A stretch of 39,430 nucleotides of DNA. Source: Acidobacteriota bacterium (GTDB taxonomy: Bacteria > Acidobacteriota > Vicinamibacteria > Fen-336). Made by a program: the position numbers and the translations under genes. The notes below the pieces were generated by a model. It did not search any database. It saw only the letters and a list, made by a program, of their open reading frames with translations, and was not told where the DNA came from. The stretch spans positions 1-39,430 of the forward strand of contig JAJDNV010000015.1 of assembly GCA_022340545.1 (NCBI GenBank). The letters run 5' to 3'. Each line of letters starts with the position of its first letter. The stretch's first letter is position 1. Positions 21,970 to 39,430 of this stretch are shown here, piece after piece.

Positions 21970-23466
21970 CTAGACGCGCTCGAACAACTCCCTGACCGCG
22001 GGTTTCGTGACCTTCCCCAGAGCGTTCCGAGGAAGGTCAGACACGAGCTTCAGCCCTCTCGGAATCTTGTGGCGCGAGAGCCGTTCGCGGGCCCACGCCT
22101 GCAGCCCGGCCAGGTCGAGGCTCGCCCCTTCCCGCGTCACCGCCGCCACCGCGACGGTGTCACCCCAGATCTCGTCCTTGACGCCGACGACGGCGCACTC
22201 CTGGATCGCCGGATGCTGGCGCAGCACCTCTTCGATCTCCAGCGCCGAGAGCTTGTGGCCTCCGGTCTTGATGATGTCGACCGATTGCCGACCCAGGATC
22301 CGGTAATAACCATCCTCCAGGACGGCAACGTCCCCGGTCCGGAACCACCCGTCGACGAACGACTCCTTCGTGACCGCCGGCTTCTTCCAGTACTCGGCGA
22401 ACACCGCCGGGCCCCGGACCTGGATCTCGCCGGCCTCGTTCTCGGTCCCGATGAGGTCACCGGACTCCGCGACCAGGCGGACGTCGACGCCGGGCAGCGC
22501 CTGTCCGACCGCGCCGGGCCGCCGCTCTCCGGACAGCGGGTTGGAGAGCGCCATCCCGATCTCGGTCATGCCGTAGCGCTCGAGCAGCGTCTGACCGGTC
22601 AGCTCGGTCCACTTCTCGTGGATCGAGACGGGGAGGGCCGCCGACCCGGAGATCATGAGCCGCATGTGCGCGAAGCCGGCCGCCCACCGTTGGCGGTCCT
22701 CCGGCATCGCGGACTCGAGCGCCTGGATCAGCTTCACGTAGATCGTCGGGACCGCCATGAAGATCGTGTAGGCCTTCTCCCCCACCCGCTTCAGGATCGC
22801 TTCCTGATCGAACGACTCGAAGGCCTCCACGAAGGCACCAGACCACAATGCACAGCTCAGCACGTTGACGATCCCATGGACATGGTGAAGCGGGAGGAAG
22901 AGCGGGATGCGGTCCTCCCCCTGCCACGCCCAGGCCTCGACGAGGGAGGTGATCTGCGCTTCGATGTTCGCGTGGGTCGTGACGACTCCTTTGGGTCGGC
23001 TTGTCGTGCCGCTCGTGTAGAGAATCATTGCGGGACGGTCGGTCGAGATCCCGGGAAGAGCGGCCGGGTTCGCGCCGAGGGCGGCCTCGACCGCCAGCCG
23101 CCGGATGCCGAGCCGCTCGCAGAGAGGCCCGACCCTGCCAATCAGTCGCCGGGGCGCCAGGGCGACACCGACCTCGGCGTCGGTGAGGACATGCTCGATC
23201 TCCGGCTCGGTGGCGGCGAGGCTCAGAGGCACGGCGATGCCTCCTGCGCGCCACGCGCCCCACTGCACGGCCGCGTGCTCCGCGCTCCCCGGAATCAGAA
23301 ACGCTACGCGCTCCCCCCGGAGGTCCGGCCGGCCGTCGAGCAGAGCAGCGCCGACGCGGGCCGACAGACTGAGCAGATCCGAGTACGAGTGGCGAGCCCC
23401 CCGAGAAGCGATCGCCGGCGCGTCCCCGTGGTCTTTCGCCCTCTCGATCAGCCTGATCCCCGCCAC
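21970..23466 (-). CDS. matB: AMP-forming acyl-CoA synthetase, malonyl-CoA synthetase (MatB/ACSF3)-like
   Basis: ILYTSGTTSRPKGVVTTHANI, ERYGMTEIGMALSNPLSGERRPGAVGQALPGV, GWFRTGDVAVLEDGYYRILGRQSVDIIKTGGHKLSALEIEEVL; lies 7 nt downstream of MadM-like gene. Confidence 0.85.
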   Translation of the reverse strand: MAGIRLIERAKDHGDAPAIASRGARHSYSDLLSLSARVGAALLDGRPDLRGERVAFLIPGSAEHAAVQWGAWRAGGIAVPLSLAATEPEIEHVLTDAEVGVALAPRRLIGRVGPLCERLGIRRLAVEAALGANPAALPGISTDRPAMILYTSGTTSRPKGVVTTHANIEAQITSLVEAWAWQGEDRIPLFLPLHHVHGIVNVLSCALWSGAFVEAFESFDQEAILKRVGEKAYTIFMAVPTIYVKLIQALESAMPEDRQRWAAGFAHMRLMISGSAALPVSIHEKWTELTGQTLLERYGMTEIGMALSNPLSGERRPGAVGQALPGVDVRLVAESGDLIGTENEAGEIQVRGPAVFAEYWKKPAVTKESFVDGWFRTGDVAVLEDGYYRILGRQSVDIIKTGGHKLSALEIEEVLRQHPAIQECAVVGVKDEIWGDTVAVAAVTREGASLDLAGLQAWARERLSRHKIPRGLKLVSDLPRNALGKVTKPAVRELFERV

Positions 23467-23473
23467 GCGCTCT

Positions 23474-24247
23474 CTACCCGAAGAACGCCCGGATCGTCAC
23501 GAACACGATCGAGGGTCCGAGCAGACACCCGAGCCCGGTGTAGAAGGTGGCGGTCATCGCCCCGTAGGGTACGAGCTTCTCGTCGGTCGCGGCCAGGCCC
23601 CCCGCCACCCCGCTGGTCGTGCCCATCAGGCCGCCGAAGACCAGCGCGGAGCGGGGGTTGTCGAGGCCGATGTGGCGCGCGACGAAAGGGGTTGTCGTCA
23701 TGACCAGCATCGACTTGACCAGCCCCGCGGCAATGCTCAGGGCCACCACGTCCGACGTCGCTCCCAGGGCTGTGCCCGTCACCGGCCCGACGATGTACGT
23801 GGCCGCGCCCGCGCCGATCGTGGTCATGCTGACCGGATCGGTATAGCCGAAGAGCCATGCCACCGTTGCCCCCACGGCGAAGGATCCGAGAACTCCGGTC
23901 AGCAGACCGACGACTGCGCCGGCCCCCGCCTTCCGTATCTCGGACAGATGGACGCCGAACGCGGTCGCGATGATCGCGAGATCGCGGATCATCGCCCCCC
24001 CCAGGAGCCCCACACCGGCCAGAACATCGATGTCCGCGACCCCGTGGTCGCCTCCGGTCGCAACTCCACCGGCGTAGGCCAGGACCAGACCGATCAGGAT
24101 CGCGATGGCCGAGCCGTGCACCCGGCCCCGGGTGAGCCGGTCGGAGACGAGGTAGGAGAGCCAGACCGTGACACCGACGAACGCGAACGCGGCGACCAGT
24201 CCATTGCTCAGCAGCACCGACCTGAGCGACTCCACAACCACCGTCAC
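23474..24247 (-). CDS. madM: Malonate transporter subunit MadM
   Basis: Multi-TM; VWLSYLVSDRLTRGRVHGSAIAILIGLVLAYAGG...GLLGGAMIRDLAIIATAFGVHLSEIRKAG...GAGAATYIVGPVTGTALGATSDVVALSIAAGLVKSMLVM; GTG start overlaps madL stop (GTGA). Confidence 0.88.
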   Translation of the reverse strand: MTVVVESLRSVLLSNGLVAAFAFVGVTVWLSYLVSDRLTRGRVHGSAIAILIGLVLAYAGGVATGGDHGVADIDVLAGVGLLGGAMIRDLAIIATAFGVHLSEIRKAGAGAVVGLLTGVLGSFAVGATVAWLFGYTDPVSMTTIGAGAATYIVGPVTGTALGATSDVVALSIAAGLVKSMLVMTTTPFVARHIGLDNPRSALVFGGLMGTTSGVAGGLAATDEKLVPYGAMTATFYTGLGCLLGPSIVFVTIRAFFG

Positions 24248-24645
24248 GGCCCGTCCTCCTTCGACTCCACCTTCTCCGAGCGGCCCACGCGACTGATGGC
24301 CGGCACCAGGGCGAAGCCGACGCCCACCGCCAGGAAGCCGGCGAGGAGCGCGGCTGGACCACCTTCGACCGCGGCGAGCACGTTCTGGCTGGCGGCCATG
24401 GCCACCACGACGGGGATGTAGATCGAGCTCCAGAAAACGATGCCCTGCCGGGAGATGGGCTTCAGCCTCCCCTGCCCCTGCAGGCGGTCCGCGGCGAGGA
24501 TCAGCAACAGCATGGCGATGCCCACGCCCCCCACGTTGGCCCGGACCCCGATCAGCTCCCCCAGCAGCTCGCCGCAGAAGACCCCGGCGATCATGCAGCC
24601 CGAGAGGAGCGCGACACCGTAGATCACCACCGCGTTGTCTCCCAT
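24244..24645 (-). CDS. madL: Malonate transporter subunit MadL
   Basis: MGDNAVVIYGVALLSGCMIAGVFCGELLGELIGVRANVGGVGIAMLLLILAADRL...GIVFWSSIYIPVVVAMAASQNVLAAVEGGPAALLAG. Confidence 0.88.
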   Translation of the reverse strand: MGDNAVVIYGVALLSGCMIAGVFCGELLGELIGVRANVGGVGIAMLLLILAADRLQGQGRLKPISRQGIVFWSSIYIPVVVAMAASQNVLAAVEGGPAALLAGFLAVGVGFALVPAISRVGRSEKVESKEDGP

Positions 24646-24871
24646 CGACGAGGCCGGCCGCCATCCCCCGGGCCCCGCGGGGTGCAATGCCGGCCCGCTA
24701 TTGTCTCTCGAGTCGATTGATCTGCAGTCTGGCACTCCCAAGGCAGACCCGACCGGCCGCCGTCCGGGCCCCCTCACTCAACCATCGGACTGTCCCACCA
24801 GTCCAAGGAGGTGTGGAGTCGCATCCGGCTCACCCGGTGGGGGGCTCTGCCGCAATTCCAGGGAGGGGATC

Positions 24872-26404: not shown

Positions 26405-27031
26405 ATGCTCGACACCCTCGTTCAGGCGATCAGCGACATGAAGGAGGAGCAGGCACTGGCCGAGGCCAGAGCCCTGCTCGCGGCCGGCGAGGATCCCATG
26501 CGGATCGTGGAGAGCTGCTCTTCGGCGATGGAGCTGGTGGGGCGGCGGTTCGAGGCCGGCGAGTACTTCCTGGCCGAGCTCATGATGGCCGGCGACCTGG
26601 TCCGGCAGGTGTCCGACCTGGTCAAGCCCGAGCTCCGCGGCCGCGCCGAGGCAGCCAAGAGAGGCAGTATCGTGATCGGGACGGTGAAGGGCGACATCCA
26701 CAACATCGGCAAGGACATCGTCGCCTTCCTGCTCGACGTCAACGGCTTCGACGTGCACGACCTCGGCGTCGACGTGGCGCCGGCCACGTTCGTCGAGGCC
26801 ATCCGGGAGCACGAGGCGGGCGTGCTGGGGTTGAGCGGCCTGCTCACGGTGGCCTTCGACTCGATGAAGAGCACGATCCGGGCGATCGAGGATGCGGGCC
26901 TACGCGATCGGGTGAGGATCATGATCGGCGGCGGCCAGACGAGCGACGCCGTACGCCAGTACGCTGGCGCGGATGCCTACTGCCGGGACGCCTTCGCGGG
27001 CGTGAGCCTGGCCCGAGAATGGGTCGATTGA
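26405..27031 (+). CDS. Corrinoid (B12-binding) methyltransferase component, MtaC/MtbC-like
   Basis: VIGTVKGDIHNIGKDIVAFLLDVNGFDVHDLGVDVAPATFVEAI (DxHxxG), GLSGLLTVAFDSMK, IGGGQTSD; N-terminal helical cap domain. Confidence 0.94.
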   Translation: MLDTLVQAISDMKEEQALAEARALLAAGEDPMRIVESCSSAMELVGRRFEAGEYFLAELMMAGDLVRQVSDLVKPELRGRAEAAKRGSIVIGTVKGDIHNIGKDIVAFLLDVNGFDVHDLGVDVAPATFVEAIREHEAGVLGLSGLLTVAFDSMKSTIRAIEDAGLRDRVRIMIGGGQTSDAVRQYAGADAYCRDAFAGVSLAREWVD

Positions 27032-27038
27032 GGCTGCG

Positions 27039-28382
27039 GTGAAGGAGCGCTGGCTGCAGCCGTCTCCGGACGCGACACAGAAGCTGACGCAGGGCCTCGA
27101 GGGGTGGCGGTCCGGCTCGGGGATCGACTTCGAAAGCCCCGAGGCGAAGGCGACGTACCAGGAGCGCGTGACGCTGCTGAAGGACGCCCTCGAGATGATG
27201 AACCCGCCCCCGCGCGTTCCCGTCTGCCCCTCGGCCGGACACTTCCCGCTCGAGTACGCGGGCGTCAGCTGGCGAGAGGCGATGTACGACTACGCGACGC
27301 TGGCCCGCGCCTGGCACAAGTACTACGACGACTTCGGCCCCGATGCCTACGTCGGTCCGGGCACCATCGTGCCCGGGAGGGCGCTGGACGGCATCGGCTT
27401 CAATCTCTACCAGTGGGCGGGTCACGGGCTGGCGGACGACGAGGGCTACCAGTTCGTCGAGCGGGAATACATGAAGGCCGAGGAGTACCCGGACCTGATC
27501 GACGATCCGACCGGGTTCTTCCTCAGCGTCTACTTCCCGAGGATCTGCGACGAGCTCCAGGCCCTGCGCCACATGCCGCTGCTGCCTCCGGTGCACGAGA
27601 TCCCCATGGTCGCCCCGGCCCTTCTCCCGTTCGCGAGGCCGGACGTGAAGGCGGCGTTGGAGACGCTGGTCCGCGCCGGGGACGAGGCCGATCGCTGGCT
27701 CGGGGCGATTCGAGGCGTCGGGGCCTCGATCATGGGTCGTGGGCTTCCCTCCTTCGCCGGAGGAATCTCCAAGGCCCCTTTCGACCTCATCGGCGACAGC
27801 CTCCGCGGAACCCGGGGCGTGATGCTGGACATGTTCCGCCACCCCGACGAGCTGGTCGAGGCCTGTGAGCGCCTCGTTCCCTCCATGGTCCGGTACGGCG
27901 TGGAATCGAGCCGGGCAGCGGGCCATGTGGTGGTCTTCATACCCCTCCACAAGGGCGCCGACGGGTTCATGTCGAACGCCCAGTTCGAGCGGTTCTACTG
28001 GCCGACCCTGCGCAAGGTCGCGATCGGGCTGATCGACGCCGGGCTCGTGCCTCAGCTGTTCGCGGAGGGCGGTTACGATCAGCGCCTCGAGATCATCAGC
28101 GACCTGCCGAAGGGCACGACACTATGGTGGTTCGACCGCACGGACATGGCCCGGGCCAAGCGGACGGTCGGTCGCGTGGCCTGTCTCTCGGGAAATGTGC
28201 CCCTCGATCTCCTGTGTACCGGGACGACCGACGACGTCGAGCAGTACTGCAAGACGCTCATCGACACGGCGGGCGAGGGTGGCGGCTTCATCCTGTCGAC
28301 GGGCGCCGGCATGCAGGGGTCGAAGCCCGCCAACGTACGGGCGATGATCGACTTCTCGAAGGCGTACGGCGTCTACCGCTAG
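27039..28382 (+). CDS. Uroporphyrinogen decarboxylase-family (MtaA/MtbA-type fold) methyltransferase
   Basis: GPGTIVPGRALDGIGFN..., DMFRHPDELVEACERLVPSM, GADGFMSNAQFERFYWPTLRKVAIGLIDAGLVPQLFAEG, LSGNVPLDLLCTGTTDDVEQYCKTLID, GGFILSTGAGMQGSKPANVRAMID; GTG start 7 nt after the corrinoid gene. Confidence 0.87.
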   Translation: MKERWLQPSPDATQKLTQGLEGWRSGSGIDFESPEAKATYQERVTLLKDALEMMNPPPRVPVCPSAGHFPLEYAGVSWREAMYDYATLARAWHKYYDDFGPDAYVGPGTIVPGRALDGIGFNLYQWAGHGLADDEGYQFVEREYMKAEEYPDLIDDPTGFFLSVYFPRICDELQALRHMPLLPPVHEIPMVAPALLPFARPDVKAALETLVRAGDEADRWLGAIRGVGASIMGRGLPSFAGGISKAPFDLIGDSLRGTRGVMLDMFRHPDELVEACERLVPSMVRYGVESSRAAGHVVVFIPLHKGADGFMSNAQFERFYWPTLRKVAIGLIDAGLVPQLFAEGGYDQRLEIISDLPKGTTLWWFDRTDMARAKRTVGRVACLSGNVPLDLLCTGTTDDVEQYCKTLIDTAGEGGGFILSTGAGMQGSKPANVRAMIDFSKAYGVYR

Positions 28383-28459: not shown

Positions 28460-29638
28460 CTACGGCTTCTGCTGGAACACTCTCTGCATGAAATCAGCCA
28501 GCAGGTGTCGCCATGCCTTCCACACATGCGCGCCGGGGGTGCGCACGAACACGTGGTTGACGCCGTGCTCCTTCAGGACCTCAATCAGGTCGAGCTGTCC
28601 CTGAAATCGTGGGTCCTCCGTGCCGCAACCCAGAAAGAGCAGCCTGAGCTTGTCGTTGACGGCGGAGGCGTCGCTCAGAAAGCCCGGCAGATGCGTCTCG
28701 AGGTCGAAGTCAGCGTCGCTGACGAGTCCCGAGCTGAACTCCCCCACCCAGGCAAAGGTGTCCAGGTTCCTCAAGCCGATGGTGAAGGCCTGCCCGCCTC
28801 CCATCGAGAGGCCGGTGATCGCACGACCGTCTCGGTTCTGCAGCACGCGATAGTTGTCTTCGACAAAGGGAATCACGTCGCCCAGCAGCTCCTTCTCCAG
28901 GATCGCCATGCCCTCGGGGCTACTGCCGCCGGCCCAGGTGCCATCGGTGTGCCCGTTCGTCATGACGACGAGCATGGGCACGGCCTTCCCCTGCGCGAGC
29001 AGGTTGTCCAGGATCACCCCGGCGCGGCCGGACTGGCTCCAGTTCCTTTCGTCATCACCACCCCCGTGCCGCAGGTACAGGACCGGGAACCTCCGCTGGG
29101 AGTCCTTCTGATAGTCCGGTGGCACATACACATAGAGATCTCGTTGGCGTTTCAGCGGCGTCGACGTGTATGTCCGAATGTGAATAGCACCGTGAGGGAC
29201 GTCCTGCGCCTCGTCAAAGCGCGGCGGCCTTCCCGGGATCTCGACCTCGCTCGCGCTCAGTCCCCTGGCCCCGGTCTTCAGGTTCGGGTTGTTCCGGTCG
29301 AGTACACGCAGCCCGTCCACGGTGAACGTGTATTCATAGATCTCGGGCTCCACCGGACCAATGGTGATGCTCCACAGGCCGCTGTCATCCTTGCTCAGCG
29401 GCTGCGGCTCCGAGGAGCCGAAGCTGAGGTTCACCTCGGAGGCCCTCGGCGCGCGGATCCGAAACGTGATCCGCCGATCCGGATGGACCTCCGGACTCAC
29501 GACGACCTCGCGGACGACTCCCCTGGAGGCACCGGTCCGATACTGGTTGCGCTGCGGTTGGTCAGCGGCTTGCGCCCGAGCGAAGACCGCTGTCGAAGTC
29601 GCCAGAATGCACAAGAAAACGAGACTCAATAGCCTCAT
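28460..29638 (-). CDS. Secreted CE1/enterochelin-esterase-like esterase with N-terminal Ig-like (E-set/CBM48-like) domain
   Basis: MRLLSLVFLCILATSTAVFARAQA signal; ITFRIRAPRASEVNLSF...GLWSITIGPVEPEIYEYTFTVDG; FPVLYLRHGGGDDERNW; ITGLSMGGGQAF nucleophile; GAHVWKAWR His. Confidence 0.87.
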   Translation of the reverse strand: MRLLSLVFLCILATSTAVFARAQAADQPQRNQYRTGASRGVVREVVVSPEVHPDRRITFRIRAPRASEVNLSFGSSEPQPLSKDDSGLWSITIGPVEPEIYEYTFTVDGLRVLDRNNPNLKTGARGLSASEVEIPGRPPRFDEAQDVPHGAIHIRTYTSTPLKRQRDLYVYVPPDYQKDSQRRFPVLYLRHGGGDDERNWSQSGRAGVILDNLLAQGKAVPMLVVMTNGHTDGTWAGGSSPEGMAILEKELLGDVIPFVEDNYRVLQNRDGRAITGLSMGGGQAFTIGLRNLDTFAWVGEFSSGLVSDADFDLETHLPGFLSDASAVNDKLRLLFLGCGTEDPRFQGQLDLIEVLKEHGVNHVFVRTPGAHVWKAWRHLLADFMQRVFQQKP

Positions 29639-29689
29639 CACAGGCTCCTTCCGTGTCGCTGAGTACTGAAAGCTAGAGTGTTTCGGCTA

Positions 29690-30424
29690 TCACTCCGGGT
29701 ACCAGTCGAGCAGACGGACCTCGATCTTCGGGTTCTTCGAGACGATCTCCTTGAACTTCTCGAGGTCGGAGAATCCGCCCTGCCCCCGGTAGTGGTAGGG
29801 GATGACGACCCGGGGCTGGAACTCCAGGACGGCATCGGCCGCCTTCTCGACGTCCATCGTGTAGGGCAGGTTCATGCAGACGAAGGCGACGTCGATGTTC
29901 TCGAGGGCCCGCATCTCGGGGATATCCTCCGTGTCCCCGCTGATGTAGACCCTCTGGCCGCCGACGGTGACGACGTAGCCGTTGCCCAGCCCCTTCGGGT
30001 GGAACTGGGTCCGCTCCTCGGTGAGGTTGTACATTGGGATGGCCTCGACCGAAACTCCGGCCACCTCGGCCGTCTCACCGTTGGCCAGGACCTTCACGAC
30101 CCCCTTCACCTCGCCGAGGCGCTCGGCGACGGATTGGGGGACGACGATGGTGGTGTCGTCCTGGGCCACCGCCGCCACCGTGGCCGGGTCGAGGTGATCC
30201 CCGTGAACGTGGGTGATCAAGATGAGGTCCGGGGGCGCCTCCCCCGCGAAGGCCTCGGCCCCTCCGAGGGGATCCACGTAGATCGTGGTCTCACCGTGGG
30301 AGAGCACCAGCGTGGCGTGCTGCAAGGGCCGAATCGTGAGCTCACCCACGGTCGAGGCCGCGGCCTGCGCAAGAACGGGAACCGCAGCGAAGAAGAGCAA
30401 CAACGGTGCGACGTATAGCCTCAT
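29690..30424 (-). CDS. Secreted MBL-fold metal-dependent hydrolase (UlaG-like)
   Basis: MRLYVAPLLLFFAAVPVLAQAAA signal; LQHATLVLSHGETTIYVDPLGG...DLILITHVHGDHLDP; RVYISGDTEDIPEM; VVIPYHYRG. Confidence 0.9.
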   Translation of the reverse strand: MRLYVAPLLLFFAAVPVLAQAAASTVGELTIRPLQHATLVLSHGETTIYVDPLGGAEAFAGEAPPDLILITHVHGDHLDPATVAAVAQDDTTIVVPQSVAERLGEVKGVVKVLANGETAEVAGVSVEAIPMYNLTEERTQFHPKGLGNGYVVTVGGQRVYISGDTEDIPEMRALENIDVAFVCMNLPYTMDVEKAADAVLEFQPRVVIPYHYRGQGGFSDLEKFKEIVSKNPKIEVRLLDWYPE

Positions 30425-30479
30425 GGAATACCTCCTCGCACGCAAGAAAGACTGGGCCAGGCCTGCCCGGTGGCGGGAG

Positions 30480-31598
30480 CTATCGAAACACCAGCTGGGC
30501 AAACTCGGCGAAGTAGCGCCGAAACCACGGCCAGCCGTGGATGCCTTGAGTCATGGTGAAGGTCGTGTCATAGCCGCGCCGCTCCAGGTCTTCGGCCAGA
30601 TACTTGGCGCTGGTGAATGTCATGGCGTTGACTCCGTCACCAACATACACCTTCACGCGCTTCACGTTGTCCGGATCGTCGAGGACACCAGGAAACTGCT
30701 CCTCGTAGTACGCGATTCGATCCGCGCGCAACCCGTTGCTGGTGAATCCGATGTGGTCGAACTTCTCGACGTTGGGGAGCCACGTGTCCGGCAGGATGTT
30801 GGGGTAGGAGAGTCCGCCCAAGGCGCGGCTCTCCGAGGCCGCCAGCACCCGGTAGCTCTCCTCGACGTAGGGGATGACGTCCTGCGCGAGGTACTTGACG
30901 AACAGCGCATTGTTCGCCTCGCGCCGCTCGGTGGGAACCGGCGGGGGCAGCGCCCAGATGCTGGGCATCACCACGACCATCGGCCTGGCCCGACCCTGGG
31001 CGATCAGGTTGTCGAGGATCAGATGGGCTCGTCCGATATCGACCCAGCCCCCGTCGTCGTCACCCCCGCCATGGAGGAGGTACATGGCCGGATACCGGGC
31101 CTGCGACTCCTCATAGCCCGGCGGGAAGTAGATGTGCATGCGCATCACCCTGTCGAGGACGGAGGACTGGTGGTGCACGATGCGCACCTCACCGTGGGGC
31201 ACCGGCCGGGCTTCGAGGAGCGCGGTCTGCTCTCCCGGAACGGTGAACATGCTCTGCGTGGTGCGGATTCCCGGTTTGATGGCGCCATTCGCGGGGTCGG
31301 GAATGGGCATCCCGTCCACGAGAAAGAAGTAGCTGTAGAGATCCGGGAAAAGGGGTCCGACGGTGATCGACCAGACGCCGTCTTCGTCCTTGACCAGCTT
31401 CTCCACACGCCGCTGCTCCAGCCAGAAGTCCCCGGCAATCGTCACTTCCTCGACGTTCGGGGCCCGGAGACGGAAGACGACCCGCTGGTCGGGCAGGATC
31501 TCGGGAGAGACCACGGGCGCCGGCGTGGTGGCGGCACGCTCGGACTGGGCCCATGCGATGGTCGCAAAGAGAACGAACAGCAATGCGCTCTTCTTCAT
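30480..31598 (-). CDS. Second secreted CE1/enterochelin-esterase-like protein, paralog of 28460-29638, with altered nucleophile elbow
   Basis: MKKSALLFVLFATIAWAQ signal; VVFRLRAPNVEEVTIAGDFW...DGVWSITVGPLFPDLYSYFFLVDG; YPAMYLLHGGGDDDGGW; ALGGLSYPNILPDTW where the paralog has GLSMGGG. Confidence 0.82.
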   Translation of the reverse strand: MKKSALLFVLFATIAWAQSERAATTPAPVVSPEILPDQRVVFRLRAPNVEEVTIAGDFWLEQRRVEKLVKDEDGVWSITVGPLFPDLYSYFFLVDGMPIPDPANGAIKPGIRTTQSMFTVPGEQTALLEARPVPHGEVRIVHHQSSVLDRVMRMHIYFPPGYEESQARYPAMYLLHGGGDDDGGWVDIGRAHLILDNLIAQGRARPMVVVMPSIWALPPPVPTERREANNALFVKYLAQDVIPYVEESYRVLAASESRALGGLSYPNILPDTWLPNVEKFDHIGFTSNGLRADRIAYYEEQFPGVLDDPDNVKRVKVYVGDGVNAMTFTSAKYLAEDLERRGYDTTFTMTQGIHGWPWFRRYFAEFAQLVFR

Positions 31599-31681
31599 GG
31601 TCACCACCGGAATCGAGCCGATTCTAGTCCGGCGCCAACGGTCACGACCTCTGCATCACCCGAGCCAACGGGCCGCGCTCA

Positions 31682-33376
31682 CTAGAGAGGTGGAAGCGCC
31701 TGCCGCGCCTCCCGGTCCGGGTCGTTCCGGGCCGCGCTCACGTCGTCGAGCACCATGGTCTCGCCCTGCGCGGTGGTGTACTTCGGCCAGGCCGGGAGCC
31801 CGCCGCCGTTCGGGTCGCCCGCCTTCATGAACTGCACGAGCGCGCCCGCCATCTTCGCGGCGAGCTTGCGCGGACGCGGGCCGCCGGCGGTGTGGGTCAG
31901 CATCAGGTCGGTGTTGTGGAACCAGAAGCAGATGTCGATGCAGTGGAAGGCCCCCATGCGACCATCGAAGTGCGGCGGCTGCCACGTGAACCAGGCGACG
32001 TACACGGGGGGCGGCTGCTTCGACTTGGCGTCGGCCAGCGCCACCGTGCTCTGGCGGGTGCTGCTCACGAGGGACCAGATCTCGGCGGGCTCCTTGCCCG
32101 GAAAGGCCTTGGCGTAGGCCTCGACCACATCCATCGCACGATCGCCGAAGCCCGGAGAGAATCCCGCGCGCGTCTTCACACGCTCGGCCACATCGGCGAG
32201 CGTCAGCTGGTCGGGTGTCGGTTCGAACGCCGCGGGGGAGATCTCGTTCATCGTCGAGCACACGAGCAGGGGGACGCCGGCCGCGGTGGGCGCCGCATCG
32301 GGGTAGTAGGGGTCCTGCGGCAGGACGGCGCCGTCAACGACCGGGCTGAAGCCCCCCCGCAGCCCGCGGCCGCCGCCGCTCTCCGCCCGCAGCTTCTCGA
32401 GCGCCTTCGTGGCGACGGCGTAGTACTCCTTCCAGGGCATCGCCTGCAGCTTGTCGATTTCGCCTGCGCCCAGGCCAGCCTCCGCGAGCACGTAGCCCCC
32501 GAGCTTCTCGGAGTGCTCCTTCTCACCCATGCGCAGCGAGGCGCCGCTCAGCACCACCGCCTTGTGGAAGAGCCCCTTGGCGCTGGGCATCGCGGTGAGC
32601 GTGCAGACCTTGGCGCCCCCGCCCGACTGACCCATGATGGTGACGTTGGCCGGGTCGCCGCCGAAGGACGCGATGTTGTCGCGCACCCACTCGAGCGCCT
32701 GCACGATGTCGAGCATGCCCACGTTGCCGGAGGCCGCGAAACGCTCGCCCCCCACGCCCGCCAGATTGCAGTAGCCCATCGGACCGAGGCGGTGGTTGAT
32801 CGAGCAGAACACCACGTCGCCGAAGCGCGCGAGGTTCTCGCCGTTGTAGCCGTCCTGCTCGATGCCGTTGCCGGCGGTGAAGCCGCCACCGTGAAGCCAG
32901 ACCAACACCGGCCGCTTCCGGCCGTCGCCCGCCGCGGGGGTGAACACGTTGATCCGCAGGCAGTCCTCGCTCACGTCGTCGTAGTTCCAGTGGTCGCGAA
33001 ATGCCGCGTACTTGTTCGCGTAGCGGTTCTCCATGTTCTGGGGCGCCGAGTTGCCCCACCACAGCGCCGGAAAGACGTCCGTCCAGGCCTCGGGCGGCTG
33101 GGGCGGCATGAAGCGATTGGGGCCAGAGGTGTCGGCGCCGTAGGGGATGCCGAGATAGTATTGGACGCCCCGCAGGACGTAGCCACGCACGCGGCCGTGG
33201 CGGGTGTCCACCATCGCCACGTTCTCGCCGACCTGCAAGACCGGACCGTCGTCGCCCGTCCCGACCCCCGTGGTGTCGGCAGAGACGATGGCGGCGCCTC
33301 GCGCGCCGATCGTGAGGCCGGCCGCGCCCGCCCCCGCTGTCCGGAAGAAGCTGCGCCTGCTGGAATTCATCGACAT
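31682..33376 (-). CDS. Carboxylesterase type B family protein with Tat signal
   Basis: NSSRRSFFRTAGAGAAGLTIGARGAAI (twin-arginine); GIPYGADTSGPNRFMPPQPPEAW; EDCLRINVFTPA...PVLVWLHGGGFTAGNG; VTIMGQSGGGAKVCTL. Confidence 0.9.
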   Translation of the reverse strand: MSMNSSRRSFFRTAGAGAAGLTIGARGAAIVSADTTGVGTGDDGPVLQVGENVAMVDTRHGRVRGYVLRGVQYYLGIPYGADTSGPNRFMPPQPPEAWTDVFPALWWGNSAPQNMENRYANKYAAFRDHWNYDDVSEDCLRINVFTPAAGDGRKRPVLVWLHGGGFTAGNGIEQDGYNGENLARFGDVVFCSINHRLGPMGYCNLAGVGGERFAASGNVGMLDIVQALEWVRDNIASFGGDPANVTIMGQSGGGAKVCTLTAMPSAKGLFHKAVVLSGASLRMGEKEHSEKLGGYVLAEAGLGAGEIDKLQAMPWKEYYAVATKALEKLRAESGGGRGLRGGFSPVVDGAVLPQDPYYPDAAPTAAGVPLLVCSTMNEISPAAFEPTPDQLTLADVAERVKTRAGFSPGFGDRAMDVVEAYAKAFPGKEPAEIWSLVSSTRQSTVALADAKSKQPPPVYVAWFTWQPPHFDGRMGAFHCIDICFWFHNTDLMLTHTAGGPRPRKLAAKMAGALVQFMKAGDPNGGGLPAWPKYTTAQGETMVLDDVSAARNDPDREARQALPPL

Positions 33377-33478
33377 GGAACCTCCTCGCTCGTCGTGGAA
33401 CTCACGGCTTCGGCCGCGCGGCGACGACCGCGGGCGGACCGCCACCCACTATTCTCGGGGCGTGGTCGTCGGCCGTGA

Positions 33479-34809: not shown

Positions 34810-36105
34810 TCAGATTGGGAAGACGCCGACGAGGATGCAGCCGACCGCCATGACGAGGGTGACGAGAAACGCAAAGCCGAAAGTGGACTTCTGGTGATCG
34901 GCGAGATCCACGCCCGTCAACCCAATGAGCAGAAACGTCGCCGGGGTCAGGGGACTCAAGGGGAAGCCGGTCGTCATCTGTCCCAATATGGCCGCTTGCG
35001 CGATCGAGACAGGGGCGACGGCCAGACCCTTGCCGACCTCGGCCACGACGGGAAGGACGCCGAAGTAGAAGGAGTCGGGGTCGAAAAGGAAGCTGAGCGG
35101 CATGCTGAGCACCGCGAGAATCACGGGCACGTGCGCTCCGAGGGCCGCGGGAATGACGGCCACGGCCTCGCTCGCCATCGCCTGGATCATCCCGGAGCCT
35201 TTCATGATCCCGGTGAAGACTCCGGCGGCCAGGAGAATGCTTGCCATCAGCAGCGCCGCCTTCGCGCGGGCATCCACCCGCTCCCTCTGGGCATCCAGGC
35301 TGGGATAGTTGACCATCAACGCGATCACGGCCCCGATCATGAAGACGAGCGTCGGCGACACCACCCCGGAAACCAGCGTGGAGATGGCCAGCAGGGTGAG
35401 CGCGACGTTGAACCAGAAGAGCCCGGGGCGCCTTCCGCTCTCGGCATCTGACGGTCGTTGCGCGGCCTCCTCGCCGCCGGTGGCGGGCGCAGGCCCCAGC
35501 CTTCGGGCCTCCCTCCTCCCCAGCCAATAGGCGATCAGCAGGACCGTCGCGAGCCCGCAGACATGAGGGATCACGATCGGGCGGTAGAGGTCCACGACGC
35601 TGACGTTCAGCGCCGTGGCCGCCCGCAGCGTAGGCCCTCCCCAGGGAACGACATTCATGGTTCCGGCGCCGAGCGCCACGACGGACGCGAGAACGCGCCG
35701 GTCCATGCCCAGGCGGTCGAACAGGGGAAGGACGGCGGGGACGGTGATCAAGAACGTCGTCGCGCCCGAGCCGTCGAGGTGCGCGATCATCGAGAGCAGG
35801 GCCGCGCCGACGGCGATCCGGGGAGGGCTGCTGCCGATCACCTTCAGGATGAAGCGGATGATCGGCTCGAACATGCCGGCATCGGTCAGTACCCCGAAGA
35901 AGATGATCGCGAAGACGAACATGGCGGCGACGGGCGCGATGTTCTTGATTCCCTCAATGGCGAAGTCTGCCGTCTTCAGGCCGAAGCCGGCGGCCAGGGA
36001 CCCCAGGATCGGAATCAGGATGAGAGCAGACAGCGCCGACAGCTTCTTCGTGAGAATGGCAGCGAGCAGGACGACGATGATGGAGATTCCGACCAGGACC
36101 AGCAT
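34810..36105 (-). CDS. CitMHS-family citrate/carboxylate-metal:proton symporter
   Basis: [41 protein letters not shown]...[24 protein letters not shown]...[62 protein letters not shown]. Confidence 0.9.
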
Positions 36106-36142
36106 GGTGGTGCTCCCAGGCTCTCCGGAGGATGGACGGTCT

Positions 36143-37402
36143 TCAGGCCGTGTCCATGGGTCCCGACGAGCGTGTGCTCGGCTTGCTCGGGGCGGGGGCC
36201 TCGGGCCCGAGGATGACGCCCTGGGCCACCAGCGCCGCCGCGGTCTGCTCGTCCAGGCCCAGCAGGTCGGCCAGGACGGCTCGGGTATGCTCTCCCAGGC
36301 GCGGGGCGGGGATGGTGCGCCGCCCCGGGGTCTCGGACAGCTTGAAGGGCGTTCCCGTGACGCGGTGTCGACCCGCCGTCGGGTGATCGAGCGTCGGGAA
36401 CATGTCCCGGAACGCCGATTGCGGGTGCTCCACCACCTCCTTGAAGTCGCGGACGGGAGTACAGGGAATCCCCACCGACCGGAGCGTCTCGAGCCACTCG
36501 CCCGCCGTGCGATGACGGAAGACGTCCGCCAGGACTCGCTCGAGCGCGTGGCGGTTCTTCACCCGGTCGGCATTGGTGGCGAAATCCGGCGCCGTCTTGA
36601 GATCCGGGCGGTCGATCACGTCGCACAGGGCCGCCCACAGCTTCTCGCTGCCCGCCGCGATCGCAAAGCCGCGATCCGAGGCGTTGAAGACGCGGTAGGG
36701 GACCACGGTCGGAAAGGCGGTGCCGAGCGGACGGGGGATGCGGCCCGACCCGAGGTAGGTCGCATGGTTGGAGCACATCGTGGAGATCATGGAGTCCTGC
36801 ATGGAGACGTCGACGAGCTGCCCCTTCCCCGTGCTCTCGAGGGCGCGGAGCGCGGTGAGGATCCCGATCACGCCGAAGAGGCCTGCCGTTACGTCCGCGA
36901 CCGAGTAGCCGCTCCGCACCTGCTCGCCCTTCTCCGTTCCGGTCATGCTGACCAGCCCGCTGGAGCATTGGACGATCAGGTCCATGGCGGCCTCGTCGCG
37001 AGAGGGGCCGTCCTGCCCGTATCCGGAGATGGCGCAATACACCAGGCGTGGGTTCCGCGCGTGAACGACGTCGTAGCCGAGACCAAGCCTCTCCATCGTG
37101 CCGGGGCGGAAGTTGTGGATGAGGACATCCATCTTCTCGATCAGGCCCAGGCAGAGCTCGCGCCCGCGTTCATGCTTGAGATTGATCGCGATGCCATGCT
37201 TGCCCCTGTTGAGGCCCAGGAAGAAGTAGGCCTGATCGCCGGCGAACGGCGGTCCCCAGCCGCGGCCCATGTCGCCACCAGCCGGGTCCTCCAGCTTGTA
37301 TACCGTCGCCCCGTACTCGGAGAGCAGCATGGTGCAGTACGGGCCCGACAGGGCGTGGGAGAAGTCCAGGACGCGGATTCCCTCGAGGGCGGAAGTTGTC
37401 AT
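36143..37402 (-). CDS. CaiB/BaiF (family III) CoA-transferase
   Basis: [52 protein letters not shown]...[47 protein letters not shown]...[34 protein letters not shown]. Confidence 0.95.
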
Positions 37403-37424
37403 GGGCGTGCCTGCCGGTGTGGGC

Positions 37425-37817
37425 TCAGACCGGCACGCACTTGTGGCCGTAGCAGAGAATGCCGGCCTGGCCATCCTCCTGGATCTTTCGGAACTCGAGG
37501 CGCACCCGCTGGCCAATGGCCAGCTCCTCGAAGTCGCAGTCGGCGATCTGCGCCATGATCCGGACGCCGCCTTCCAGCTCGACGACGCCGACGGCATAGG
37601 GGGTCAGGTCGGCGAGCTGAGAGGGTCCGACCCGGGTGATGGTGTAGGTGAGAATCTTGCCCTCATCCGCCAGCACGACCGACTCGAACTTCCGGGAACG
37701 GCACTTTCGGCACGCGAGACGGGGCGGATAGCTGATCTCGCCACACGACGTGCATCTCGCGGCCTCCAAGCGGTAGCGCTGGGGTATCTCTCTCCAATAA
37801 CGAGCGGGATTGGCCAT
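37425..37817 (-). CDS. DUF35 Zn-ribbon/OB-fold acyl-CoA-associated protein
   Basis: YRLEAARCTSCGEISYPPRLACRKCRSRKFE...GKILTYTITRVGPSQLADLTPYAVGVVELEGGVRIMAQIADCD. Confidence 0.93.
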   Translation of the reverse strand: MANPARYWREIPQRYRLEAARCTSCGEISYPPRLACRKCRSRKFESVVLADEGKILTYTITRVGPSQLADLTPYAVGVVELEGGVRIMAQIADCDFEELAIGQRVRLEFRKIQEDGQAGILCYGHKCVPV

Positions 37818-37851
37818 GATCTCGAATCCTCAGTTCTCTCGAGGCGTCCAC

Positions 37852-39012
37852 TCAGACGGCCTCGAGGATGTGCACCACGCTGCTGCCGCCAGTGCCACCC
37901 ATGTTCTGTGTCAGGCCGGTCCGGGCTCCCTCGACCTGCCGCTCTCCGGCGCTGCCCCGGAGCTGTCGCGTGATCTCGATGACCTGGGCGACTCCGGTGG
38001 CGCCCACGGGATGGCCCTTCGACTTCAGGCCGCCGCTCGTGTTCACCGGCACCTTGCCGCCGAGCGCCGTCATCCCGCTCTCGGCCGCCTGGCCGCCCTT
38101 GCCCTTCTCGACCAGCGAGAGAGCCTCGAGGGCGAGGATCTCCGCGATGCTGAAGCAGTCGTGGACCTCGGCCAGATGAATGTCCTTCGGGGTCTTCCCC
38201 GCCATCTTGTACGCCTTCTCTCCGGCCCGGTGCACGGCCTCGAGCCAGGCCAGGTCCGATCGGGAGTGCAGCGCGATCGAATCGGATGCCTGGGCGGAGG
38301 CCAACACCTTCACCAGAGGCTGCTTCGAGATCTTGCGTGCCATTTCCAGTGGGCACAACACGACGGCCGCGGCGCCGTCCGTGATGGGCGAGCAATCGAG
38401 GATCCTCAATGGATCCGCGACCATCACCGAACCCAGAACGTCCTCGACGCTGATCGCGAATGGGTACTGCGCCTCGGGATTGAAGGAGCCGTGCTTGTGG
38501 TTCTTGACCGAGACGTGGGCCAGTTGCTCACGAGTCGTGCCGTAGCGCTCCATGTGCACCCGGGCCATCAGGGCGTACAGACCGGGGAAGGTGATGCCGT
38601 GGTAGGCCTCGTACTCCATATCGGAAGCTGCGGAGAGGGCGTAGGTGGCCTCGTCTCCGCTCACGTCGGTCATCTTCTCGACTCCGCCCACCAGGACGAT
38701 GTCGCTCGTGCCGGAAGCGACCTCGATGAACCCCTGGCGGAACGCGGCGCCGCCGGAGGCACAGGCGGACTCGACGCGCGTGGCGGGCACCGGGTTGATG
38801 CCCAGGTAGTCGGCCATCAGACAGCCCAGATGCTCCTGGCCCACGAAGAGGCCGCTAGACATGCAGCCCACGTACATCGAGTCGACGTGGTCGACACCGG
38901 CGTCGTCCACGGCGTTGAGCGCAGCCTCCACGAAGATGTCACGTAGCGACATCTCCCAGAGCTCGCCCCATTTCTTGTTGATGCCGACTCCCAGGATCGC
39001 AACGTCTCTCAT
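37852..39012 (-). CDS. Archaeal/SCP-x-type thiolase (acetyl-CoA C-acetyltransferase-like)
   Basis: [49 protein letters not shown]...[13 protein letters not shown]...[19 protein letters not shown]...[20 protein letters not shown]...[13 protein letters not shown]. Confidence 0.93.
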
Positions 39013-39024
39013 TGCCGATCTCCC

Positions 39025-39430
39025 CTACTCTGCCGTGAGGATCTTGCCGCGGTACTTGCAGTAGGTCCCGTAGTCCAGGAACACCTTGTCGTTGTCGAGC
39101 ATCTCCCTGGTCTTCGCGGCCTTGTCTCGCACCTCCTCGATCCGCTCGGTCACGGTGAAGATGAAGCCGTCGCTGCCCGCGCCCGAGCCGTAGGACACCA
39201 TCAGGATCCTGTCCTTCGGCTTGGCCACGTCCAGGATCGCCGTGAGGCCCAACGGGGAGGAGCCGGAGTACGTGTTCCCCAGCTTGGGCACCAGACGCCC
39301 GACCTCGATCTGTTCCCGGGTGAAGCCCAGCGTCTTGCCCGCCTTCAGGGGGAACTTGCCGTTCGGCTGGTGGAAGACGGCGTAGTTGAAGTCCTGGGGC
39401 TTCATTCCGGCCTTGGCCATGAGGCCTCGC
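39025..39430 (-). CDS. Hydroxymethylglutaryl-CoA synthase-like protein (archaeal type), C-terminal part; 5' end beyond window
   Basis: RGLMAKAGMKPQDFNYAVFHQPNGKFPLKAGKTLGFTREQIEVGRLVPKLGNTYSGSSPLGLTAILDVAKPKDRILMVSYGSGAGSDGFIFTVTERI; reading frame stays open to 39430. Confidence 0.88.
   Translation of the reverse strand, partial: RGLMAKAGMKPQDFNYAVFHQPNGKFPLKAGKTLGFTREQIEVGRLVPKLGNTYSGSSPLGLTAILDVAKPKDRILMVSYGSGAGSDGFIFTVTERIEEVRDKAAKTREMLDNDKVFLDYGTYCKYRGKILTAE

Follow-up and report, generated by a model that had tools for sequence, protein, structure and literature searches.

The window analysed here, a stretch of 39,430 nt that makes up the entire contig JAJDNV010000015.1 (C135) of an assembly from a soil-type member of the Acidobacteriota (GCA_022340545.1, here G000; Vicinamibacteria, Fen-336; 5.04 Mb, 94% complete), carries five consecutive minus-strand genes for an archaeal-type 3-hydroxy-3-methylglutaryl-CoA (HMG-CoA) synthase (HMGCS), a thiolase, a DUF35 protein, a CaiB/BaiF (family III) CoA-transferase and a CitMHS transporter (Table 1). 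The intergenic gaps given for these genes in the first-pass annotation were all borne out by the recomputed gene ends: 12 nt (39025/39012), 34 nt (37852/37817), 22 nt (37425/37402, assuming that the CoA-transferase starts at the ATG at 37402) and 37 nt (36143/36105). Judging from this spacing, the five genes are probably co-transcribed as one operon. The contig end truncates HMGCS, of which the window holds the part matching PRK04262 positions 217-345. The N-terminal half (model positions 1-156, 253 bits) was found at the end of contig C96 of the same assembly, in matching orientation and preceded by a GGAGG ribosome site, and ~58 codons are missing in the assembly gap between the two contigs. 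A genome search found no second archaeal-type HMGCS in G000. Because the missing part lies at a contig end in the right orientation, behind a ribosome site and with no other such synthase found, C96 and C135 appear to be neighbours in the genome. The operon thus begins with HMGCS, whose start lies on C96.

Table 1. Genes of the operon, listed in order of transcription, with the matches that identify them
Gene product	Position in window	Strand	Matches
HMGCS, archaeal type (C-terminal 134 aa; rest on contig C96, G000:C96:3-470, minus)	39025..39430	-	PRK04262 184 bits; TIGR00748 170 bits
Acetoacetyl-CoA thiolase of the thiolase/HMGCS/DUF35 complex	37852..39012	-	PRK06064 548 bits (cut-off 420); 6esq_A 372 bits
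DUF35/ChsH2-like scaffold protein, zinc ribbon and OB fold	37425..37817	-	PF01796 and PF12172 above cut-off
CaiB/BaiF (family III) CoA-transferase, probably for 3-hydroxy-3-methylglutarate or a similar C5-C6 dicarboxylate	36143..37402	-	PF02515 427 bits
CitMHS carboxylate:proton symporter	34810..36105	-	TIGR00784 403 bits (cut-off 260)

The first three genes (the trio) had been likened at first pass to the archaeal thiolase/HMGCS/DUF35 complex (Vogeli et al. 2018, as cited in a passage of PMC12329534), and this likeness held, the best PDB matches of the three proteins being the three chains of 6esq. As the window copy of HMGCS is split, its structural comparison was run on the ortholog at locus L060, which scored 487 bits to 6esq and 228 bits to the PhlACB acyltransferase (5m3k), while DUF35 scored 114 bits to 6esq_E and 53 bits to PhlB. 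PhlACB shares the three-component architecture, but the sequences are far closer to 6esq, and these scores rule out a PhlABC-type acyltransferase. The catalytic residues E80, C112 and H233 of HMGCS are near-invariant in 116 homologues and intact in G000, and C84, H284 and H334 of the thiolase, near-invariant across the aligned homologues, are intact in the window. On the evidence of adjacency, 6esq matches and catalytic residues, the trio is thus assigned by sequence to the archaeal-type complex, with which it shares all three subunits, the gene neighbours and the catalytic residues. It differs from the archaeal version in being bacterial, in lacking a reductase, in being followed by a CoA-transferase and a CitMHS gene, and possibly in its direction of operation.

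To place the trio in a wider context, we surveyed its distribution and neighbours. Of 396 genomes surveyed within the phylum, 55 have an archaeal-type HMGCS, and scanning GTDB contigs with the thiolase brought in 80 loci from many phyla. Context was counted at 114 non-duplicate loci holding the DUF35 gene of the trio. Methylcrotonyl-CoA carboxylase (MCC) beta lies downstream together with a hydratase or biotin carboxylase at 58 of these, again in many phyla, and a further 10 have a partial leucine set (68 in all); Aib-like genes accompany eight trios, and 38 have neither set, some of these lying on short contigs. The leucine-linked neighbours are MCC beta, methylglutaconyl-CoA hydratase, biotin carboxylase and the biotin carboxyl carrier protein BCCP (L060, L061, L063-L068, L070, L072, L083 and most of L113-L191). 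By PDB match the carboxylase subunit is a true MCC beta (755-758 bits versus 289 for the propionyl-CoA carboxylase PCC); for the hydratase the nearest model is gamma-carboxygeranoyl-CoA hydratase, and its PDB matches are not discriminating. A second arrangement, seen in Planctomycetota, Myxococcota and others, runs from the hydratase through biotin carboxylase to a distant MCC-like subunit (33-35% to the first type), and the existence of two MCC and gene-order types suggests that the link between trio and leucine genes arose more than once.

Like the bacterial leucine (liu) operon, the relatives of the window trio have MCC beta, biotin carboxylase, methylglutaconyl-CoA hydratase and acyl-CoA dehydrogenase side by side, with the trio standing in place of HMG-CoA lyase. 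The liu-type lyase was missing in 38 of the 39 leucine-linked trio genomes tested: none of the 12 Acidobacteriota had it, and one of the 27 genomes from other phyla did, two more giving hits in a weaker range. Hits of 248-270 bits in three of the leucine-linked Acidobacteriota belong to a distinct lyase-like/CoA-transferase pair and not to a leucine lyase. Because a strong lyase is present in only about one-fifth to one-quarter of the sampled Acidobacteriota, its absence within this phylum alone is statistically weak, and the argument for replacement rests on the pathway hole, since the route as far as HMG-CoA is encoded in the leucine-linked genomes. A description of the trio in leucine catabolism was not found in the open-access literature searched, and textbooks present HMG-CoA synthase as working in the biosynthetic direction only. 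It is possible, if doubtful when taken as a whole, that in many phyla the trio runs in reverse as a lyase-free cleavage of HMG-CoA by which leucine breakdown finishes at three acetyl-CoA, without free acetoacetate, and that in G000 it has been re-used on imported 3-hydroxy-3-methylglutarate (HMG). The apparent substitution of trio for lyase in leucine catabolism is the stronger and more interesting result, ahead of the five-gene operon.

A tree of trio homologues, a check suggested at first pass, was built on HMGCS, thiolase and DUF35 together and grouped the window trio with leucine-linked trios at full support. Its sisters are L058 and L060 (SH-aLRT 100), both with MCC downstream, and 32 of the 35 members of the surrounding clade are leucine-linked. 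Neither C135 nor C96 has MCC, hydratase or biotin carboxylase genes beside the window trio, while these are present beside the sister trios. Identity to L060, which belongs to another family of the phylum, is 88% for HMGCS (known parts only), 82% for thiolase and 70% for DUF35, compared with 73%, 68% and 60%, respectively, for the trio of G001, a genome of the same genus. Because the same-genus copy is more distant than that of L060, the window trio was probably acquired by transfer. Contamination by a genome like G332, the carrier of a sister trio, is unlikely (GC 66% versus 59%, tetranucleotide pattern nearer to G001).

Conservation of all five genes as a system, as supposed in the first-pass annotation, was not upheld: none of about 120 trio loci had a family III CoA-transferase or CitMHS gene nearby, and the trio-linked pairing of the two was found only in G000. 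In G001 the trio, the closest CoA-transferase (40%) and the CitMHS (61%) lie on three different contigs; the five-gene order was not found in the genus, where the G001 contig ends inside DUF35 and hides the next gene. The conserved unit is the trio and not the five genes, and the full operon is a variant known from a single genome.

The CoA-transferase belongs to family III by its PF02515 match and aligned D141, and the nearest named models are succinate--glutarate CoA-transferase (NF052585; 296 bits, cut-off 750) and succinyl-CoA:mesaconate CoA-transferase (287 bits, cut-off 700). It matches the human succinate--hydroxymethylglutarate CoA-transferase (SUGCT; PDB 9br6) with 283 bits, with which it has the family III fold and the catalytic Asp in common, but it falls far short of the curated equivalog cut-off, and the match in substrate is putative. 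The dicarboxylate role first assigned to it therefore stands in part: among enzymes for named dicarboxylates it is closest to the succinate--glutarate/HMG kind, at scores below the curated cut-offs. An ortholog above 47% identity was not present in the 396 genomes of the phylum. For CitMHS, sequence search found no relative of solved structure. CitMHS relatives in the class adjoin AtuA-like genes in G001, G052 and G035 (named by eye, as no NCBIfam model fits); at L211, L213 and L214, in three genomes of the class, the transporter gene stands beside genes for an AtuA-like protein and for a small protein resembling the AtuA C-terminus. No paper on AtuA/DUF4387 was found in the open-access literature searched. 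In G018 (L212:4864-9729), genes for LysR, an acetyl-CoA acetyltransferase-like thiolase, a fused 3-oxoacid CoA-transferase and a related CitMHS stand in a row. This suggests that acetoacetate or a keto acid like it is taken up, and the layout of import, CoA transfer and thiolytic cleavage is the same as in the window operon.

Several genes around the operon deserve mention. An EstA-like esterase gene lies upstream of HMGCS on C96, on the same strand and ~105 nt off, followed farther along by triosephosphate isomerase and fucosidase-like genes (both named by eye from sequence) and other unrelated genes. Below the operon, the minus strand of the window at 28460-33445 holds two esterase-family genes (28460-29641 and 30480-31607) along with genes for a metal-dependent hydrolase and a carboxylesterase. 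An AMP-binding CoA ligase gene adjoins that of a MadM malonate/sodium symporter subunit at 21970-24664, a further pair of transporter and CoA activation, and a B12-binding corrinoid protein is followed by a URO-D-type methyltransferase-like protein at 26405-28382.

We tentatively favour, at somewhat short of an even chance, a reading in which the operon serves to take up HMG or a close analogue, activate it to HMG-CoA and cleave this to acetyl-CoA by the trio in reverse. CitMHS would import the acid with protons, and the CoA-transferase would move CoA onto it from succinyl-CoA or another donor. The complex, working opposite to the archaeal direction, would then convert HMG-CoA to acetoacetyl-CoA and acetyl-CoA and on to three acetyl-CoA in all, the fused CoA site serving to hand over acetoacetyl-CoA. 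The trio itself would have been taken from a bacterial lineage where it apparently serves leucine breakdown instead of HMG-CoA lyase. Direction, CoA donor, substrate and import rather than export are all presumed in this scheme. For the five genes alone, the simplest acid to bring from outside into central metabolism is HMG, since import, CoA transfer and cleavage to three acetyl-CoA need no other enzyme. Of the first-pass proposal, a catabolic or assimilatory route for an external branched carboxylate, the comparison of genomes speaks for HMG-CoA as substrate and agrees with cleavage as the direction, while the external acid is one we infer. HMG esters are common in plants, and the esterases in the window and upstream could, as a suggestion only, free HMG from such esters. 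Bacterial growth on HMG via CoA transfer and a lyase was reportedly observed in the 1960s. Within G000, contig C260 carries a family III CoA-transferase gene with an HMG-CoA-lyase-like neighbour, a pair that recurs in six other genomes and is a precedent for the proposed scheme. The pair occurs at L206:8995-13740, L216, L210 and L222-L225, with IPMDH-like and LeuC(D)-like genes added in G000 and G001, and the enlarged unit is perhaps a pathway for a citramalate-type acid.

A number of points weigh against HMG import and cleavage by the operon. The five-gene set was seen in one genome only, no substrate-specific model (NF052585 included) gives the CoA-transferase a score anywhere near its cut-off, and CitMHS proteins are known for citrate. 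G000 also carries an ordinary leucine-type HMG-CoA lyase on C406, and cleavage by the trio is therefore not forced in this genome. A phylogenetically paired test of trio context versus lyase went in the right direction but was not significant, with 5 pairs only. Furthermore, HMGCS is by the textbook exergonic in the synthetic direction. By a rough estimate from general thioester and thiolase energies, the conversion of three acetyl-CoA to HMG-CoA is a few to ~13 kJ/mol downhill; because the overall reaction is thus estimated to lie close to equilibrium, reversal is possible at low acetyl-CoA, and in both directions the complex would profit from channelling acetoacetyl-CoA.

An unlikely alternative is that the trio makes HMG-CoA, that the CoA-transferase passes the CoA to succinate or another acid, and that CitMHS exports HMG or imports the acceptor, the product being free HMG or a precursor of HMG conjugates. 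The forward reaction is the known archaeal direction and the catalytic residues are intact. It is also the probable direction in a separate trio clade (support 100) of f1, f33 and f43, the window's own family (G006, G011) included, in which a TetR gene and the trio are followed by two family I CoA-transferase-like (AibA/AibB-like) subunits and a zinc dehydrogenase (L017, L018, L086-L091). The dehydrogenase matches 5k1s (409 bits), which we take to be AibC. The first subunit weakly matches AibA (5mzw, 67 bits), and AibA/AibB is a 3-methylglutaconyl-CoA decarboxylase according to a passage of PMC7756340. With its AibA/B-like and AibC-like genes and TetR regulator, this branch, found in Acidobacteriota, looks like an alternative isovaleryl-CoA (aib) operon of the Myxococcus kind with an archaeal-type HMGCS, running forward to isovaleryl-CoA. 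The window trio, however, lies in the leucine-linked clade and outside the Aib clade, with no adjacent AibA/B or AibC; the CitMHS family is known for proton-coupled import, and catabolic operons hold related genes.

It is likewise improbable that the acid is a different one (glutarate-, citramalate-, mesaconate- or itaconate-like, or citrate) and the trio a side branch handling acetoacetyl-CoA/HMG-CoA or the CoA donor. The CoA-transferase scores nearly equally against glutarate, mesaconate and oxalate models, and its best PDB match is an entry named 'formyl-CoA transferase', yet the operon lacks any dehydrogenase, lyase or hydratase that would act on such acids, and the C260 unit of G000 is better suited to those of the citramalate type. 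We consider it quite unlikely that the operon is a loose catabolic assemblage, a transferred leucine-type trio beside an unrelated CoA-transferase/transporter pair with no joint pathway: the order was not met elsewhere, and the thiolase identities (68% to G001, 82% to the other-family copy) point to transfer, but the shared strand, the tight spacing and the substrate logic of a SUGCT-like enzyme next to HMG-CoA cleavage speak against it. Finally, a mevalonate role, with transporter and CoA-transferase as chance neighbours, is very improbable despite being the known archaeal role of the complex, as HMG-CoA reductase, present in 6 of 41 trio genomes (G001 included), was absent from G000 by genome search of the 94% complete assembly and is missing in 34 further trio genomes, while the continuation past 39430 on C96 holds no mevalonate genes beyond HMGCS and only 22 and 37 nt separate the CoA-transferase and CitMHS from their neighbours; the role is rejected for lack of the reductase in G000, in agreement with the non-mevalonate function first proposed.

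An archaeal-type HMGCS in a bacterium is thus not always a sign of the mevalonate pathway. That leucine operons without the lyase carry the trio in many phyla suggests a non-homologous replacement of HMG-CoA lyase that would save the acetoacetate activation step, and it opens the reversibility of the complex to direct testing.

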